Part shown: positions 38,741-49,653 of the stretch, one piece after another | Position numbering within the stretch: the stretch's first letter is position 1 | Layout of the letters: every line of letters starts with the position of its first letter | Assembly: GCF_032108445.1 (NCBI RefSeq) | Contig: NZ_CP134876.1 | Span: 4,526,001-4,590,000 of the forward strand | Direction: 5' to 3' | Length of the DNA: 64,000 bases | DNA from: Micromonospora halotolerans | GTDB lineage: Bacteria > Actinomycetota > Actinomycetes > Mycobacteriales > Micromonosporaceae | The notes under the pieces: generated by a model | Seen by the model: only the letters and a program-made list of their open reading frames with translations | What the model was told of the DNA's origin: nothing | Databases searched by the model: none | Translations under genes and position numbers: made by a program

Positions 38741-38948
38741 CGGGTACCGGGGCGGTCGGGCGGGCCACGCCGGTGTCCGCCCGACCGCGCTGAGCTGGGG
38801 GAATGTCCGCGCGACGGAAGTTGTCATACCTCGGGGCTAGAGTTGCCGAGGCGTCTTCCCTGCGCCCCGACAACCCTCGAAAACCGCTCAGACCTCGCGT
38901 CGGGCGGACAGATCCGCCTCACCATCTTCTTCCGGGAGCACACGCACC

Positions 38949-42627: not shown

Positions 42628-44568
42628 GTGGCTGACCCCTCGACCTACCGTCCCGCACCCGGCACCATCCCGGAGTCGCCAGGGGTCTACCGCTTCCGCG
42701 ACGGCACCGGCCGGGTGATCTATGTCGGCAAGGCGCGCAACCTGCGCAGCCGGCTCAACTCCTACTTCGCCGACCCGGTCAACCTGCACCAGCGCACCCG
42801 GCAGATGGTCTTCACCGCCGAGTCGGTGGACTGGATCACGGTCGCCACCGAGGTCGAGGCGCTCCAGCAGGAATACACCTGGATCAAGCAGTACGACCCG
42901 AGGTTCAACGTCCGCTACCGCGACGACAAGTCGTACCCCTACCTGGCGGTGACCCTCGACGAGGAATACCCGCGGCTGCAGGTGATGCGCGGCGCCAAGC
43001 GCAAGGGTGTGCGCTACTTCGGGCCGTACTCGCACGCCTGGGCCATCCGCGAGACGCTGGACCTGCTGCTGCGCGTCTTCCCGGCGCGGACCTGCTCCTC
43101 CGGGGTGTTCAAGCGGGCCGGCCAGGTCGGCCGGCCCTGCCTGCTCGGCTACATCGGCAAGTGCTCCGCGCCCTGCGTGGGCAGCGTCACGGCCGAGGAG
43201 CACCGGGAGATCGTCAACGGCTTCTGCGACTTCATGGCGGGCCGCACCGACACCATGGTGCGCCGGCTGGAGAAGGAGATGCTGGAGGCCAGCGAGCAGC
43301 TCGAATTCGAGCGGGCCGCCCGACTCCGCGACGACGTGGCGGCGCTGCGCCGCGCCATGGAGAAGCAGACCGTGGTGCTCGGTGACGGCACCGACGCCGA
43401 CGTGGTGGCCTTCGCCGACGACCCCCTCGAAGCCGCGGTCCAGGTCTTCCACGTCCGCGACGGCCGGGTCCGCGGCCAGCGCGGCTGGGTGGTGGAGAAG
43501 ACCGAGGAGCTGACCACCGGCGACCTGGTGCACCACTTCTGCACCCAGGTCTACGGCGGCGAGCAGGGCGAGGCCGACGTCCCGCGCGAGCTGCTCGTCC
43601 CCGAGCTGCCCGGCGACGTCGACGCGCTTGCCGACTGGCTGTCCACCCGGCGGGGCAGCCGGGTGTCGCTGCGGGTGCCGCAGCGCGGCGACAAGCGCTC
43701 GCTGCTGGAGACCGTCGAGCGCAACGCCAAGGACGCGCTCGCCCGGCACAAGCTCAAGCGGGCCGGTGACCTCACCACCCGCAGCCAGGCCCTCGACGAG
43801 ATCGCCGACGCGCTCGGCATGCGCACCTCCCCGCTGCGCATCGAGTGCTTCGACGTCTCGCAGATCCAGGGCACCGACGTGGTGGCCAGCATGGTCGTCT
43901 TCGAGGACGGGCTGCCTCGCAAGAGCGAGTACCGCCGGTTCATCGTGCGGGGCGCCACCGACGACCTCTCCGCCATGTCGGAGGTGCTGCGCCGGCGGTT
44001 CGCCCGCTACCTCGACGCGCGCGCCGAGACCGGGGAGATCGGCGAGGAGACCGCGGGCGACCCGGACCGGCCGGGCATCGACCCGACCACCGGGCGGCCG
44101 CGCCGGTTCGCGTACCCGCCGCAGCTGGTCGTGGTCGACGGTGGCCCGCCGCAGGTGGCGGCCGCCGCGCAGGCCCTCGCCGAGCTGGGCATCGACGACG
44201 TGGCGCTCTGCGGGCTGGCCAAGCGGCTGGAGGAGGTCTGGCTGCCCGACGACGAGTTCCCGGTCATCCTGCCGCGCACCTCCGAGGCGCTCTACCTGCT
44301 CCAGCGGGTCCGCGACGAGGCGCACCGCTTCGCCATCACGTTCCACCGGCAGCGGCGCTCCAAGCGGATGACCGAGTCGGCGCTGGACAACGTCCCCGGC
44401 CTCGGCGAGGTACGCCGCAAGGCCCTGCTGCGGCACTTCGGCTCGCTGAAGCGGCTCAGCGCGGCGACGGTGGAGGAGATCACCGAGGTGCCGGGGGTGG
44501 GCAAGCGGACCGCCGAGGCGATCCTGGCCGCCCTCGACGACGGCGCCCAGCCCACCCCCACCCCCTAA
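42628..44568 (+). CDS. uvrC: Excinuclease ABC subunit C
   Basis: 646 residues. Dual-incision nuclease of nucleotide excision repair. The N-terminal GIY-YIG domain has [20 protein letters not shown] at residue 14 (3' incision). The UVR motif [20 protein letters not shown] near 218 binds UvrB. The RNase H-like endonuclease core has [20 protein letters not shown] near 405 and [11 protein letters not shown] near 495 (5' incision). Tandem helix-hairpin-helix follows at the C-terminus ([36 protein letters not shown]). GTG 42628, with a -10 element abutting the start. Confidence 0.97.
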
Positions 44569-44620
44569 CCCCTCGCGGGTCTCCACTCCTCCCACCCGCC
44601 GCCTCCCACGCCGACCCCTT

Positions 44621-44680
44621 GTTGATCAAGGAGTTTGCGTCAGATCGAGGTCCATTCCCGACGCAAACTCCTTGATCAAC
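44621..44680. repeat. Long perfect palindrome (family 1, copy B)
   Basis: 21-bp perfect inverted repeat, arms 44621-44641 and 44660-44680, with an 18-nt loop. The left arm starts GTTGATCAAGGAGTTTGCG. It lies 53 bp after the uvrC stop. Outer TTGATCA, inner GTT and the loop motif TCGAGGTCC parallel the copy at 22120-22178, suggesting one dispersed family. It may also end uvrC transcription. Confidence 0.85.
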
Positions 44681-44775
44681 GCGGATGGGGCGTGGCTGGC
44701 TGGGGGAGTGGGGTGTGCGGCGGGGAGGATCTACCGCCTCGTGGAGATGGATCGCCCCCCATTGCCTGTCCCGCC

Positions 44776-44838
44776 GCCGGGCGCGCCGGTTCCCGCCCCG
44801 CTGCCGGACGCGCCGGTTCCCGCTGCCGGGCGCGTCGG
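44776..44838. repeat. Short direct repeats
   Basis: GCCGGGCGCGCCGGTTCCCG at 44776 recurs with one change at 44803 and, truncated (GCCGGGCGCGTCGG), at 44825. Two and a half copies lie immediately before the next palindrome. Meaning unknown. Confidence 0.6.
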
Positions 44839-44888
44839 TGGAACGCCATGGGTGTCTCTGGGCGGTGGAGACACCCATGGCGTTCCAC
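44838..44888. repeat. Long perfect palindrome (family 2)
   Basis: 21-bp perfect arms (44838-44858, 44868-44888) around a 9-nt loop. The core is CGCCATGGGTGTCTC / GAGACACCCATGGCG. Unrelated in sequence to the family-1 palindrome 160 bp away. No ORF uses it. Confidence 0.85.
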
Positions 44889-45021
44889 TCACCGCCGCAC
44901 GTTCCCGGCGGGCGATTCCGGCCCTGTGCGAATGTCCCTTGTGTGCGCTCCAGTGCCTGTCGTCGGCGAGGGCCACCACCCTCCGGTTCGCCCGCTGCTC
45001 ATGGTTGCGGGCGTCACCTGC

Positions 45022-45075
45022 GCGGATCTTGGAGACTTGCCGTTTCGCGGTGAACGGGAACTCACCAAGATCTGC
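45022..45075. repeat. Imperfect palindrome (family 3)
   Basis: 23-nt arms (45022-45044 and 45053-45075) pairing at 19 of 23 positions, loop 8 nt. Recognisable ends are GATCTTGG and CCAAGATC. The mismatches look like drift in an old insertion. Confidence 0.7.
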
Positions 45076-45379
45076 GATGTCGGGCTGCCACCGGCATCTT
45101 CTGCCGATGGCCTCAGCGGGGTCGGCTGGTGAGCGGCTCGTGGCTGCGGTGGCCAAGGGTCGGTTGTATGGGCGGCTACGAACTTGATGACGTGAATGGA
45201 TCGGCGCGGCGACAGGGTCGGCCTGTCTCGGCCGGTGCCCTGTCGAGCTGATGTCGGGAGACCGGAGGTTCGTTGCTGGCTGCGCAGGCTGGGGTGGATG
45301 TCGGGTTTCGGGCAGGTCGTATGGGGCGGGTGTCCGCGTTTCGGCCTCGCTGTCAGGTGGTCGGCGCCACCGTGGCGGC
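45076..45379. other. Non-coding stretch between palindromes and promoter array
   Basis: 304 bp with no convincing gene. ORFs here lack ribosome sites and show no conserved motif. It contains a hairpin with arms CGACAGGG (45210-45217) and CCCTGTCG (45238-45245). Confidence 0.5.
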
Positions 45380-45751
45380 GGAATCATGGCGGGGGTGGGG
45401 TCGTTGTACATGGCAGACCGCGCAGCAGCCCGCCCCTCGGGCGAGGCGGATCGCCGGTCGGAATGACCCGGCCCCGCCGGTCGTTACACCCCCCGGACCG
45501 TGCAGGTTCGAGCCGGTCGAGCCGGCGGGAATGACCTCTCGGCCCCGGTCGTTACATCCCCCGGACCATGCACCACCGGTCCGAGCCGGTCGAGCCGGGG
45601 AATGACATCTCGGCCCCGGTCGTTACATCCCCTGGACCGCGCACCACCGGTCCGAGCCGGCCAGCCAGGGAATCATCCCGCGGCGCCGGTGGTTACATCC
45701 CCCGGGACATCGGATCAGGTCGAGGGAATCGCTTCCCCACCGCCGATGGTT
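45380..45751 (+). promoter_or_regulatory. Array of six GGAAT-N18/19-GTT promoter-like motifs
   Basis: GGAAT boxes at 45380, 45460, 45528, 45599, 45669 and 45725. Each is followed by GTT at 45403, 45483, 45551, 45622, 45692 and 45749. Spacing is 18 nt in five copies and 19 in the last. Copies two to six read GTTACA(C/T)CCCC and lie in tandem repeats of 68, 71, 70 and 56 bp that also share GGACC...GGTCCGAGCCGG. GGAAT-N18/19-GTT matches the known SigR/SigH-type ECF promoter pattern. All face the C39-like gene at 45885. Promoter function is inference. Confidence 0.7.
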
Positions 45752-45790
45752 ACACCCCCGGACCGCCCGAGCAGGTCACCCCCGATCGCC
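45460..45790. repeat. Tandem repeat block (five units, about 56-71 bp)
   Basis: Units begin at 45460, 45528, 45599, 45669 and 45725. The consensus contains GGAATGAC, CTCGGCCCCGGTCGTTACAT, CCCCCGGACC, GCACCACCGGTCC and GAGCCGGTCGAGCCGG. Units two and three are the most alike; the last two are shortened and drifted. Within a unit, GGACC and GGTCC can form a hairpin just after the -10-like GTTACA. Confidence 0.85.
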
Positions 45791-45884
45791 GGGCACCGCA
45801 CAGACTTTCCCCCCTTTTGCGGCGGCACCCCCGCACCCCCCTGTGGGTGCCGCTCACCCCCGAACGGAAGGCGCTGATCTCATC

Positions 45885-46538
45885 ATGCGTACCAACACCA
45901 TGCTGCGGAACACCGTCCTGACCGCTGCCGGCTTCGCCGCCACCGCCGGTGGAATCGCCGGCCCCGCGATCGCCGCCCACGCCGCCCCGGCCGAGAAGAC
46001 CACCCAGGTCAGCACCGACCGCAAGGGCCACGGCGAGCGCGAGCTGAACGTCCGCTACGAAGCCCAGCCCAACTTCTACTACTGCGGCCCCGCCGCCGCC
46101 CGTAACGCCATCAGCGTGCTCGGCAAGAACATCGACGTCGACGCCATGGCCAAGGAGATGGGCACCACCGAGAACGGCACCAACAGCATCAACGACATCA
46201 CCCCGGTGCTGAACAAGGAGACCGGCAAGCACTACCGGTCGGTGGAGATCCGCGACGGTAAGGCCGACGACAAGCAGACCGACACCCTGCGCGCCGACAT
46301 CGTGCGCACCGTCGACGACGGCCGCGCCGTGGTCGCCAACATCGCCGGCACCACCACCGACACCGACGGCAACACCCACTCCTTCGAAGGCGGCCACTAC
46401 ATCAGCGTCGTCGGCTACCACGACAACGGCCACACCGTCACCATCGCCGACAGCGCCAACCCGAACATGGCCTCCTACCGCATCACCGTCGACAACCTCG
46501 CCGACTGGATCGCCACCCGCGGCTACAGCGCCTCCTGA
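45885..46538 (+). CDS. Secreted C39-like cysteine peptidase-fold protein
   Basis: 217 residues. A Sec signal peptide (basic start, hydrophobic core VLTAAGFAATAGGIAGPAIA, cleavage likely after AHA). The mature part has a papain-like Peptidase_C39_2 fold: Cys in NFYYCGPAAARNAISVLG, His in EGGHYISVVGY, Asp/Asn in TIADSANPN. The substrate is unknown; related secreted proteins are common in actinomycetes. Codon choice is very strongly C-ending even for this genome, suggesting high expression. ATG 45885 with GGAAGG about 13 nt upstream. It is preceded by the six-fold promoter-like array and followed by a strong terminator. Confidence 0.85.
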   Translation: MRTNTMLRNTVLTAAGFAATAGGIAGPAIAAHAAPAEKTTQVSTDRKGHGERELNVRYEAQPNFYYCGPAAARNAISVLGKNIDVDAMAKEMGTTENGTNSINDITPVLNKETGKHYRSVEIRDGKADDKQTDTLRADIVRTVDDGRAVVANIAGTTTDTDGNTHSFEGGHYISVVGYHDNGHTVTIADSANPNMASYRITVDNLADWIATRGYSAS

Positions 46539-46565
46539 CCGGCTATCCGCTGACAGGAGCGAGCA

Positions 46566-46600
46566 CGAAGGGCCGGCCCCCACAAGGGGCCGGCCCTTCG
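46566..46600. terminator. Bidirectional terminator, C39 gene / recQ
   Basis: Perfect 15-bp stem CGAAGGGCCGGCCCC / GGGGCCGGCCCTTCG (46566-46580, 46586-46600) with a 5-nt loop, between convergent stops at 46538 and 46621. Confidence 0.9.
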
Positions 46601-46620
46601 TCGTGTCTGCGGACCGGGTC

Positions 46621-48462
<1,842 letters not shown>

Positions 48463-48626: not shown

Positions 48627-48658
48627 GGAATCCCGGGCGGGGTCGGAGCCGTTAGAGT
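48627..48658 (+). promoter_or_regulatory. Candidate promoter of the rapZ operon
   Basis: GGAAT (48627-48631) and GTT (48651-48653) are 19 nt apart, the same ECF-like pattern as the 45.4 kb array. The overlapping TAGAGT (48653-48658) is also a good principal-sigma -10, so either or both forms may act. Confidence 0.45.
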
Positions 48659-48714: not shown

Positions 48715-49653
48715 GTGAGCGAGGCGCGGACGACGGGAGACCTGGTGCCGACCAACGCGGAGACAGCTCTCGGGCGGCCGGCGCCGGCCGAGGCGGAGAC
48801 CACCCTGGTGGTGGTGACCGGCCTGTCCGGCGGTGGCCGCAGCACGGTGGCCCGGGCGTTGGAGAACGTCGGCTACTACGTGGTGGACAACCTGCCCCAG
48901 GCGCTGATGCTGGACATGGCCGAGCTGGCCTTCAAGGCCGGCGGGGCGGCCCGGCGTACGGCGATGGTGCTGGACGTCCGCTCCCGGGCCTTCTCCACCG
49001 ACCTGGCCGGGGCGATCCGGGAGCTGCGCGAGCGCGGCTTCCAGCCCCGGGTGGTCTTCGTCGACGCCGACGACGAGGTGCTGATCCGCCGCTTCGAGAG
49101 CGTCCGCCGCTCGCACCCGCTGCAGGGTGACGGCCGGCTGGCCGACGGGATCGCCGTCGAGCGGGCGCTGCTGGAGGAGGCCCGCGACCAGGCCGACGTG
49201 ATCATCGACACCAGCCACCTGAACGTGAACCAGCTCCGCCGCCGGGTCGAGGAGCTGTTCGGCGGGGAGGACTCCCGCCGGCTGCGGATCACCGTGCTCT
49301 CCTTCGGCTTCAAGTACGGCCTCCCGCCGGACGCCGACTTCGTGATGGACGCCCGGTTCCTGCCGAACCCCTACTGGGTGCCGGAGCTGCGCGAGCACAC
49401 CGGGCGCGAGGAGGCGGTCAGCGCGTACGTGCTGGGCCAGGAGGGCGCGGACGCCTTCGTGGCCGGGTACGCGGACCTGGTCAACGCCACCACCGCCGGT
49501 TTCGAGCGGGAGGGCAAGCGCTACCTGACCGTGGCCGTGGGCTGCACCGGTGGCAAGCACCGCAGCGTGGCGATCGCCGAGGAGCTGGCCGCCCGGCTGC
49601 GCCGCTCCGGCATCGCCGCCAACCCCCAGCACCGGGACCTGGGGCGGGAATGA
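48715..49653 (+). CDS. rapZ: RNase adapter / nucleotide-binding protein RapZ
   Basis: 312 residues. P-loop domain with TGLSGGGRSTVARALENVGY near residue 34, then VVDNLPQALM and FVDADDEVLIRRF. The C-terminal domain has FGFKYGLPPDADFVMDARFL, NPYWVPELREHTG and the CTGGKHRSVAIAEELAARLR signature. In E. coli RapZ senses glucosamine-6-P and guides RNase E; in actinobacteria the role is less clear. The Walker A lysine is Arg (GGGRST), a form I believe is common in actinobacterial members. GTG 48715. It overlaps yvcK by 4 bp in the conserved rapZ-yvcK-whiA order. Confidence 0.93.
   Translation: MSEARTTGDLVPTNAETALGRPAPAEAETTLVVVTGLSGGGRSTVARALENVGYYVVDNLPQALMLDMAELAFKAGGAARRTAMVLDVRSRAFSTDLAGAIRELRERGFQPRVVFVDADDEVLIRRFESVRRSHPLQGDGRLADGIAVERALLEEARDQADVIIDTSHLNVNQLRRRVEELFGGEDSRRLRITVLSFGFKYGLPPDADFVMDARFLPNPYWVPELREHTGREEAVSAYVLGQEGADAFVAGYADLVNATTAGFEREGKRYLTVAVGCTGGKHRSVAIAEELAARLRRSGIAANPQHRDLGRE

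Follow-up and report, generated by a model that had tools for sequence, protein, structure and literature searches.

Why would a single gene for a small secreted protein stand behind six copies of what looks like the same promoter? In the 64-kb stretch of the Micromonospora halotolerans chromosome analyzed here (the window), the region from 45380 to 45754 carries six GGAAT boxes, each followed by GTT at a distance of 18 bases (five boxes) or 19 bases (one box). All six were re-found on the + strand, and all are oriented toward the gene at 45885-46538, just as an earlier note on this DNA had described. On the basis of sequence comparisons, we propose, with moderate confidence, that six SigR-type ECF promoters form a homotypic array at 45380-45754, which would raise the dose of secreted peptidoglycan hydrolases. 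The elements of the array and its gene are as follows, with scores and window ranks taken from a promoter matrix described below.

45380..45408, + strand: box 1 (distal), GGAAT-N18-GTTGTA; matrix score 10.7, rank 7; N18 also in the paralogues
45460..45488, + strand: box 2, GGAAT-N18-GTTACA; matrix score 28.8, rank 1
45528..45556, + strand: box 3, GGAAT-N18-GTTACA; matrix score 26.7, ranks 2-3, tied with box 4
45599..45627, + strand: box 4, GGAAT-N18-GTTACA; matrix score 26.7, ranks 2-3, tied with box 3
45669..45697, + strand: box 5, GGAAT-N18-GTTACA; matrix score 16.0, rank 5
45725..45754, + strand: box 6 (proximal), GGAAT-N19-GTTACA; matrix score 18.1, rank 4; N18 in the 3.92 Mb paralogue
45885..46538, + strand: gene for a predicted secreted C39-like cysteine peptidase of 217 aa; PF13529, phrog_6007, invariant Cys/His/Asp

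The GGAAT-N18/19-GTT pattern occurs seven times in the 64-kb window against 0.30 expected occurrences, none of 100 shuffles reaches seven, and the array accounts for six of the seven matches. Similarly, GGAAT-N12..25-GTTACA is found five times in the window against 0.01 expected. Start-to-start distances along the array are 80, 68, 71, 70 and 56 bases, and a 71-base tandem repeat spans boxes 2 through 5. The earlier note had set box 1 apart as a copy that keeps the box and the spacing in different flanks. Both are indeed kept, but rather than an isolated look-alike, box 1 is the outermost unit of the array, and each of the two paralogous arrays has it with N18. A division between distal and proximal boxes extends to relatives: at 55 of 65 related C39 loci, the box farthest from the gene is of the GTTGTA, GTTATA or GTTGAA type, and at 57 the proximal box reads GTTACA. 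A small leaderless ORF behind box 1 was considered and set aside, its frame not being kept in the 3.92 Mb paralogue as judged by eye. Elsewhere in the window, a single GGAAT-N19-GTT (48627-48653, score 6.4) lies upstream of a gene at 48715 that appears rapZ-like by eye.

The protein encoded downstream of the array matches Peptidase_C39_2 (PF13529) with an E value of 7.9e-23 and 82.1 bits, against a curated cut-off of 24, and by eye it begins like a signal peptide. Cys67, His171 and Asp189, which we take from general knowledge of C39 peptidases to be the catalytic residues, are invariant in all 28 aligned relatives. The protein also matches two phage endolysin families (phrog_6007, E 4.8e-36; phrog_1519, E 1.5e-21), and because of these matches it is plausible that it cuts peptidoglycan peptides. 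It shares with endolysin C39-like domains these families and the invariant Cys, His and Asp, but differs from them as a stand-alone secreted protein encoded by multi-copy chromosomal genes. A structure model (pLDDT 50.6, no PDB match at E ≤ 0.001) was too weak to use for assigning a C39 fold, and a PDB profile search with the protein returned nothing meaningful (best E 0.5).

The host chromosome is a single contig of 6.96 Mb in which the whole cassette occurs twice more. The copy at 4.648 Mb, which lies on the opposite strand, is 99.4% identical over 1397 bp, and the one at 3.92 Mb is 88% identical over 1259 bp. All six boxes are present in both paralogous cassettes. When the window array is compared with that of the 3.92 Mb paralogue, differences are found at 3 of 66 box bases, 24 of 109 spacer bases and 40 of 329 linker bases; by Fisher's test the boxes differ from the spacers (p 0.002), and the comparison with the linkers is not significant (p 0.08). 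Within the DNA retrieved for three more distant C39 paralogues of this genome (50-62% identity), such boxes are absent. The segment 45143-46539 and its 4.648 Mb copy lie inverted and 76 kb apart, and their identity stops at the stop codon, after which the terminators differ; these differing terminators suggest gene conversion or recent copying.

Relatives were searched for the same spacing upstream of C39-like genes, as the earlier note had recommended. Eighty loci were collected by protein, 15 were dropped for short upstream DNA, and each of the 65 analyzed carries between one and six boxes (one box in 3 loci, two in 25, three in 15, four in 13, five in 6 and six in 3). Within 620 bp upstream of these loci there are 236 GGAA[TC] sequences, many relatives having GGAAC instead of GGAAT, and GTT follows at N18 in 188, at N19 in 7 and at N17 in 3; any other spacer from 8 to 30 bases is seen in at most 2. 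The corresponding controls yield 0 of 43 on the opposite strand, 0 of 27 in the gene body and 0 of 36 further upstream. Viewed from the other element, 118 of 123 GTTACA sequences upstream of the C39 loci have GGAA[TC] at N18 or N19. Spacer positions hold little information compared with the fully conserved boxes, in which GGAA and GTT follow from how the sites were selected, and the final A of the hexamer is kept at 95%. Boxes lie at a median distance of 77 bases from one another and never closer than 53, and the box nearest to the ATG lies at a median of 155 bases (quartiles 150-161). The earlier note had held that GGAAT and GTT drifting freely while the rest of the repeat is kept would speak against its promoter reading; the opposite is found, in that boxes and spacing are kept and the spacers drift.

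The same pattern is widespread in the genus. The chromosome of this strain has 80 GGAAT-N18/19-GTT sites against 8 for the reversed pattern, and 36 of the 80 precede just 12 genes, comprising three C39 genes with six boxes each and nine genes of a second secreted family with two boxes each. All 160 Micromonospora genomes scanned contain GGAAT-N18/19-GTTACA, at 2 to 30 sites per genome, with at most 3 for the reversed control. In a set of 300 genomes of the family, GGAAY-N18-GTTRYACM is present in 106 of 106 genomes of the genus (2-29 each) and in 161 of 194 others, mostly at one or a few sites per genome. Seven genomes from seven other genera have more sites; 18 of the 30 loci returned from these were read, and 16 of the 18 precede a C39 or muramidase gene, one of the other two lying at a contig end and one before another gene. 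At two further loci, L021 and L001 (chromosome 2164748), a single GGAAT-N18-GTTACA lies between a GntR-like and an MFS-like gene, and sequences like it occur among the sites listed for several further Micromonospora genomes.

The second secreted family emerged because many arrays in other genomes of the genus do not adjoin C39 genes. Thus, the earlier description of the array as standing in front of a C39-like gene is true at this locus, but the boxes are not confined to that gene family. Twenty such places were fetched from five other genomes and from this one, and at 17 of them the downstream gene codes for the same small secreted protein, whose signal peptide is similar. At L166 the start of this protein is visible before the contig ends, and at L151 the contig ends before the gene. 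No Pfam or NCBIfam family was found for the protein. However, its structure model (pLDDT 77.3) matches the GH184 entries 8b2e and 8b2h by Foldseek (E 1.8e-6 with a target-normalized TM of 0.82, and E 3.3e-6), and a PDB profile search finds the same two entries (E 5e-22 and 4e-22). In the accessible portion of PMC10394673, these entries are described as fungal muramidases with a catalytic Glu (Glu41/Glu125), the T. terrestris enzyme having catalytic Glu125 and Asp150. The catalytic Glu and Asp150 align with E89 and D103 of the bacterial protein, both of which are invariant in 22 of 22 sequences. By fold and profile, then, the second family appears to be a GH184-type muramidase that probably cuts cell walls. 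It resembles the fungal enzymes in fold, profile match and the positions of the catalytic Glu and Asp, but differs in being bacterial, very small, secreted and multi-copy, and no SH3-like wall-binding part is seen in these proteins of roughly 180 residues.

Nine copies of the muramidase gene, found by protein, are present in this genome. They are 86-100% identical pairwise (median 97; at least 96 for the first seven), and in every copy the 400 bp above the start contain exactly two N18 boxes, the distal box lying 80-146 bases above the proximal one. Over 30 muramidase upstream regions there are 80 GGAA[TC] sequences with GTT at N18 in 62, at N19 in 3 and at no other spacer, although all loci other than the nine in this genome were fetched at pattern hits and the spacing is partly built in. 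Five more distant homologues lack the two-box pair, one of them (L237) having a single site 475 bases upstream. At one locus of another Micromonospora-group genome (L160, oriented 587-1480), the same boxes, a similar leader and a signal peptide precede a third secreted payload with no Pfam and no PHROG match, which looks like a re-use of the upstream module.

Which sigma factor might read these boxes? The array matches the SigR consensus GGAAT-N18-19-GTT as given in the available part of PMC9205884, in line with the earlier note, and the same part names rbpA, trxB and hrdD as SigR targets in Streptomyces, rbpA being a direct one. The motif itself precedes sigR, rbpA, trxA and trxB of this genome, where it is also found before genes for a SigB-like sigma factor, erpA, sufC and L31 (N19 for trxB, N18 for trxA and these four). 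Throughout Micromonospora, GGAAT-N18/19-GTT is present in the sigR promoters of 19 of 19 genomes (18 at N19, one at N18) and in the rbpA promoters of 18 of 18, all at N19. A matrix was trained on 33 of these sigR and rbpA promoters without array sequence. Applied to the 64 kb at starts with GGA and spacers of 17-20 bases, it ranks the five GTTACA boxes 1 through 5 and box 1 seventh. The sole non-array site amid the array boxes in this ranking is GGAAT-N18-GTCATA at 38800-38830 (score 14.2, rank 6), located 150 bases upstream of the point where a uvrA-like gene starts (38949). The calibrating promoters score between 20.8 and 28.8, and the medians are 16.1 for C39 array boxes and 20.3 for muramidase boxes.

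Some of these data run against SigR itself. The median array box falls below the weakest calibrator, box 1 of the window reaches only 10.7, and many relatives carry GGAAC. Spacer length differs as well: the arrays have N18 in 188 of 198 cases (C39 loci, N17-19), compared with N19 in 36 of 37 sigR and rbpA promoters. The boxes could thus be ECF promoters that answer not to the SigR orthologue but to a different sigma factor, which would hold more strictly to an 18-base spacer and tolerate GGAAC. Candidates exist, because only one of the 29 matches to the SigR family model in this genome (E ≤ 0.001) exceeds the cut-off, namely the single SigR orthologue (TIGR02947, 353.5 bits), and other ECF-like sigma factors are therefore present. 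Nevertheless, we consider this alternative rather unlikely. The N18 promoters of trxA, L31, erpA, sufC and the SigB-like sigma gene show the same spacer outside the arrays, the proximal box of the window is itself N19, and the -10 sequence GTTACACC is common to the arrays and to rbpA.

The remaining alternatives dispense with promoter function in whole or in part. The earlier note had raised the possibility that the array acts as a decoy, and in its strongest form the array would mainly titrate SigR, with many high-affinity sites setting the threshold for the rest of the regulon. The share of chromosomal sites involved, 36 of 80, is large, but no positive evidence for a decoy role was obtained. 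A decoy needs neither an orientation nor a set distance from a gene, yet every counted box in the 65 loci is in the sense direction upstream of its gene. In addition, the narrow range of distances between the nearest box and the ATG is better explained by a promoter than by a free decoy, and titration as the main function is accordingly improbable. That the array serves as a sigma-factor sink alongside a promoter role is possible. Repeated upstream sites are also a hallmark of operators, and in some repeats GGGAATGAC looks by eye like an imperfect mirror image of GTCGTTACATCCC, so the boxes might be bound by some DNA-binding regulator and resemble SigR promoters by accident. Against such an accident stand the fixed N18 distance with a drifting spacer, the match to the sigR/rbpA matrix, and an inverted-repeat search that reported none inside the array; we regard it as highly improbable. 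Finally, the array could be a functionless by-product of tandem duplication, since boxes 2-5 fall within the 71-base repeat and whole cassettes have been copied around the genome, as the 4.648 Mb copy illustrates. This explanation is the hardest to credit, because spacers and linkers change while boxes stay, both between paralogues and across the 65 loci, and the assertion of the earlier note that the pattern is not only a by-product of duplication is supported.

Downstream of the proximal box, the C39 and muramidase families have in common a leader layout with two predicted hairpins, located in the window as follows.

45765..45794, + strand: predicted leader hairpin A (GCCCGAGCAGGTC..GATCGCCGGGC), from MFE folds and pair counts
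45822..45853, + strand: predicted leader hairpin B, a stem of varying sequence just upstream of the ribosome-binding region, from z scores

Hairpin A is predicted from MFE folds, which were read for 26 of 58 C39 leaders. In pair counts over 45 leaders, 80.5% of cells are paired, compared with 22-48% when the positions are slid. When columns are shuffled, the percentage paired is not above the control (77 of 500 shuffles reach it), and two-sided change occurs in fewer pairs than expected, although the number of cells with such change exceeds the shuffle (reached by 2 of 500). Hairpin B has a mean z of -2.99 over 58 C39 leaders and -2.42 over 30 muramidase leaders, against -0.46 and -0.19 for control stretches that are longer than the hairpin segment (65 loci each); its sequence varies between species and pairing is retained. 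Covariation among the nine muramidase leaders of this genome is weak (term +0.57, both sides changed in 2 of 26 pairs). Because the covariation tests are mixed, we consider the hairpins likely, but unproven. No Rfam family matches above its gathering score in 44560-46700 of the window or in six muramidase loci, and by eye there is no T-run after hairpin B to suggest an intrinsic terminator in the leader.

Dose amplification by repeated promoters is the best reading of these observations. Each pair of boxes would serve as the -35 and -10 elements for a holoenzyme carrying a SigR-like factor, and the six promoters would fire into one transcript that encodes the putative secreted peptidoglycan peptidase behind a structured leader, with some 100 nt separating the proximal box from the ATG. 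The C39 paralogues and the GH184-type muramidase would likewise be driven by such a layout, with one to six promoters. In Streptomyces, thiol oxidants release SigR and translation-inhibiting antibiotics induce it, according to the accessible text of PMC4921905, and comparable stresses could turn these promoters on through SigR release. If the outputs of the individual promoters add, promoter repetition together with gene multiplication (12 genes) would make the output of secreted wall-cutting enzymes climb far and steeply. Tandem promoters can interfere as well as add, as stated in the abstract of PMC11339919. The enzymes may be used in remodeling the cell's own wall, in germination, or in attacking neighbors.

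A broader and distinctly tentative proposal, which we consider rather unlikely, is that Micromonospora and some relatives possess a portable module of repeated SigR-type promoters, a structured leader and a signal peptide that has taken up different secreted wall-lytic payloads, later copied around the chromosome, with the arrays also setting the threshold of the regulon. In its favor, the two families share the boxes, the two-hairpin leader and similar signal peptides, and L160 offers a third payload.

The individual parts of the system, namely ECF promoters, a C39-like peptidase and a GH184 muramidase, would each be of a known kind, and their combination into repeated promoters with multiplied lytic genes appears to be a new variant. 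Several promoters in series can drive one gene, as in rRNA operons. The array is alike in this respect, but its promoters would be homotypic and of the ECF type, and their number varies from one to six across paralogues and species. Promoters of the SigR regulon in Streptomyces and the SigH regulon in Mycobacterium have the same elements and spacing, also seen here before sigR, rbpA, trxA and trxB, but at this locus up to six copies precede one gene. In the open-access literature searched, we found no case of a SigR-type promoter repeated before secreted lytic genes that are themselves multiplied, which is weak evidence of absence.

Bacteria usually attain higher output through a stronger promoter or more gene copies. 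This lineage seems to combine both routes, placing as many as six repeats of one ECF promoter before a gene and copying the genes as well, such that nearly half of the recognizable sites in one chromosome are spent on secreted lytic enzymes. The natural series of one to six copies, at natural spacings, provides a testbed for addition, interference and titration among tandem ECF promoters. If the portable module is real, stress that frees one ECF sigma factor would call up a dose-amplified burst of peptidoglycan hydrolase secretion. The arrays, which account for close to half of all such sites, would also fix the threshold at which the regulon as a whole responds. Regardless, in a genus noted for its antibiotics, the arrangement would couple thiol or antibiotic stress to the export of wall-cutting enzymes.
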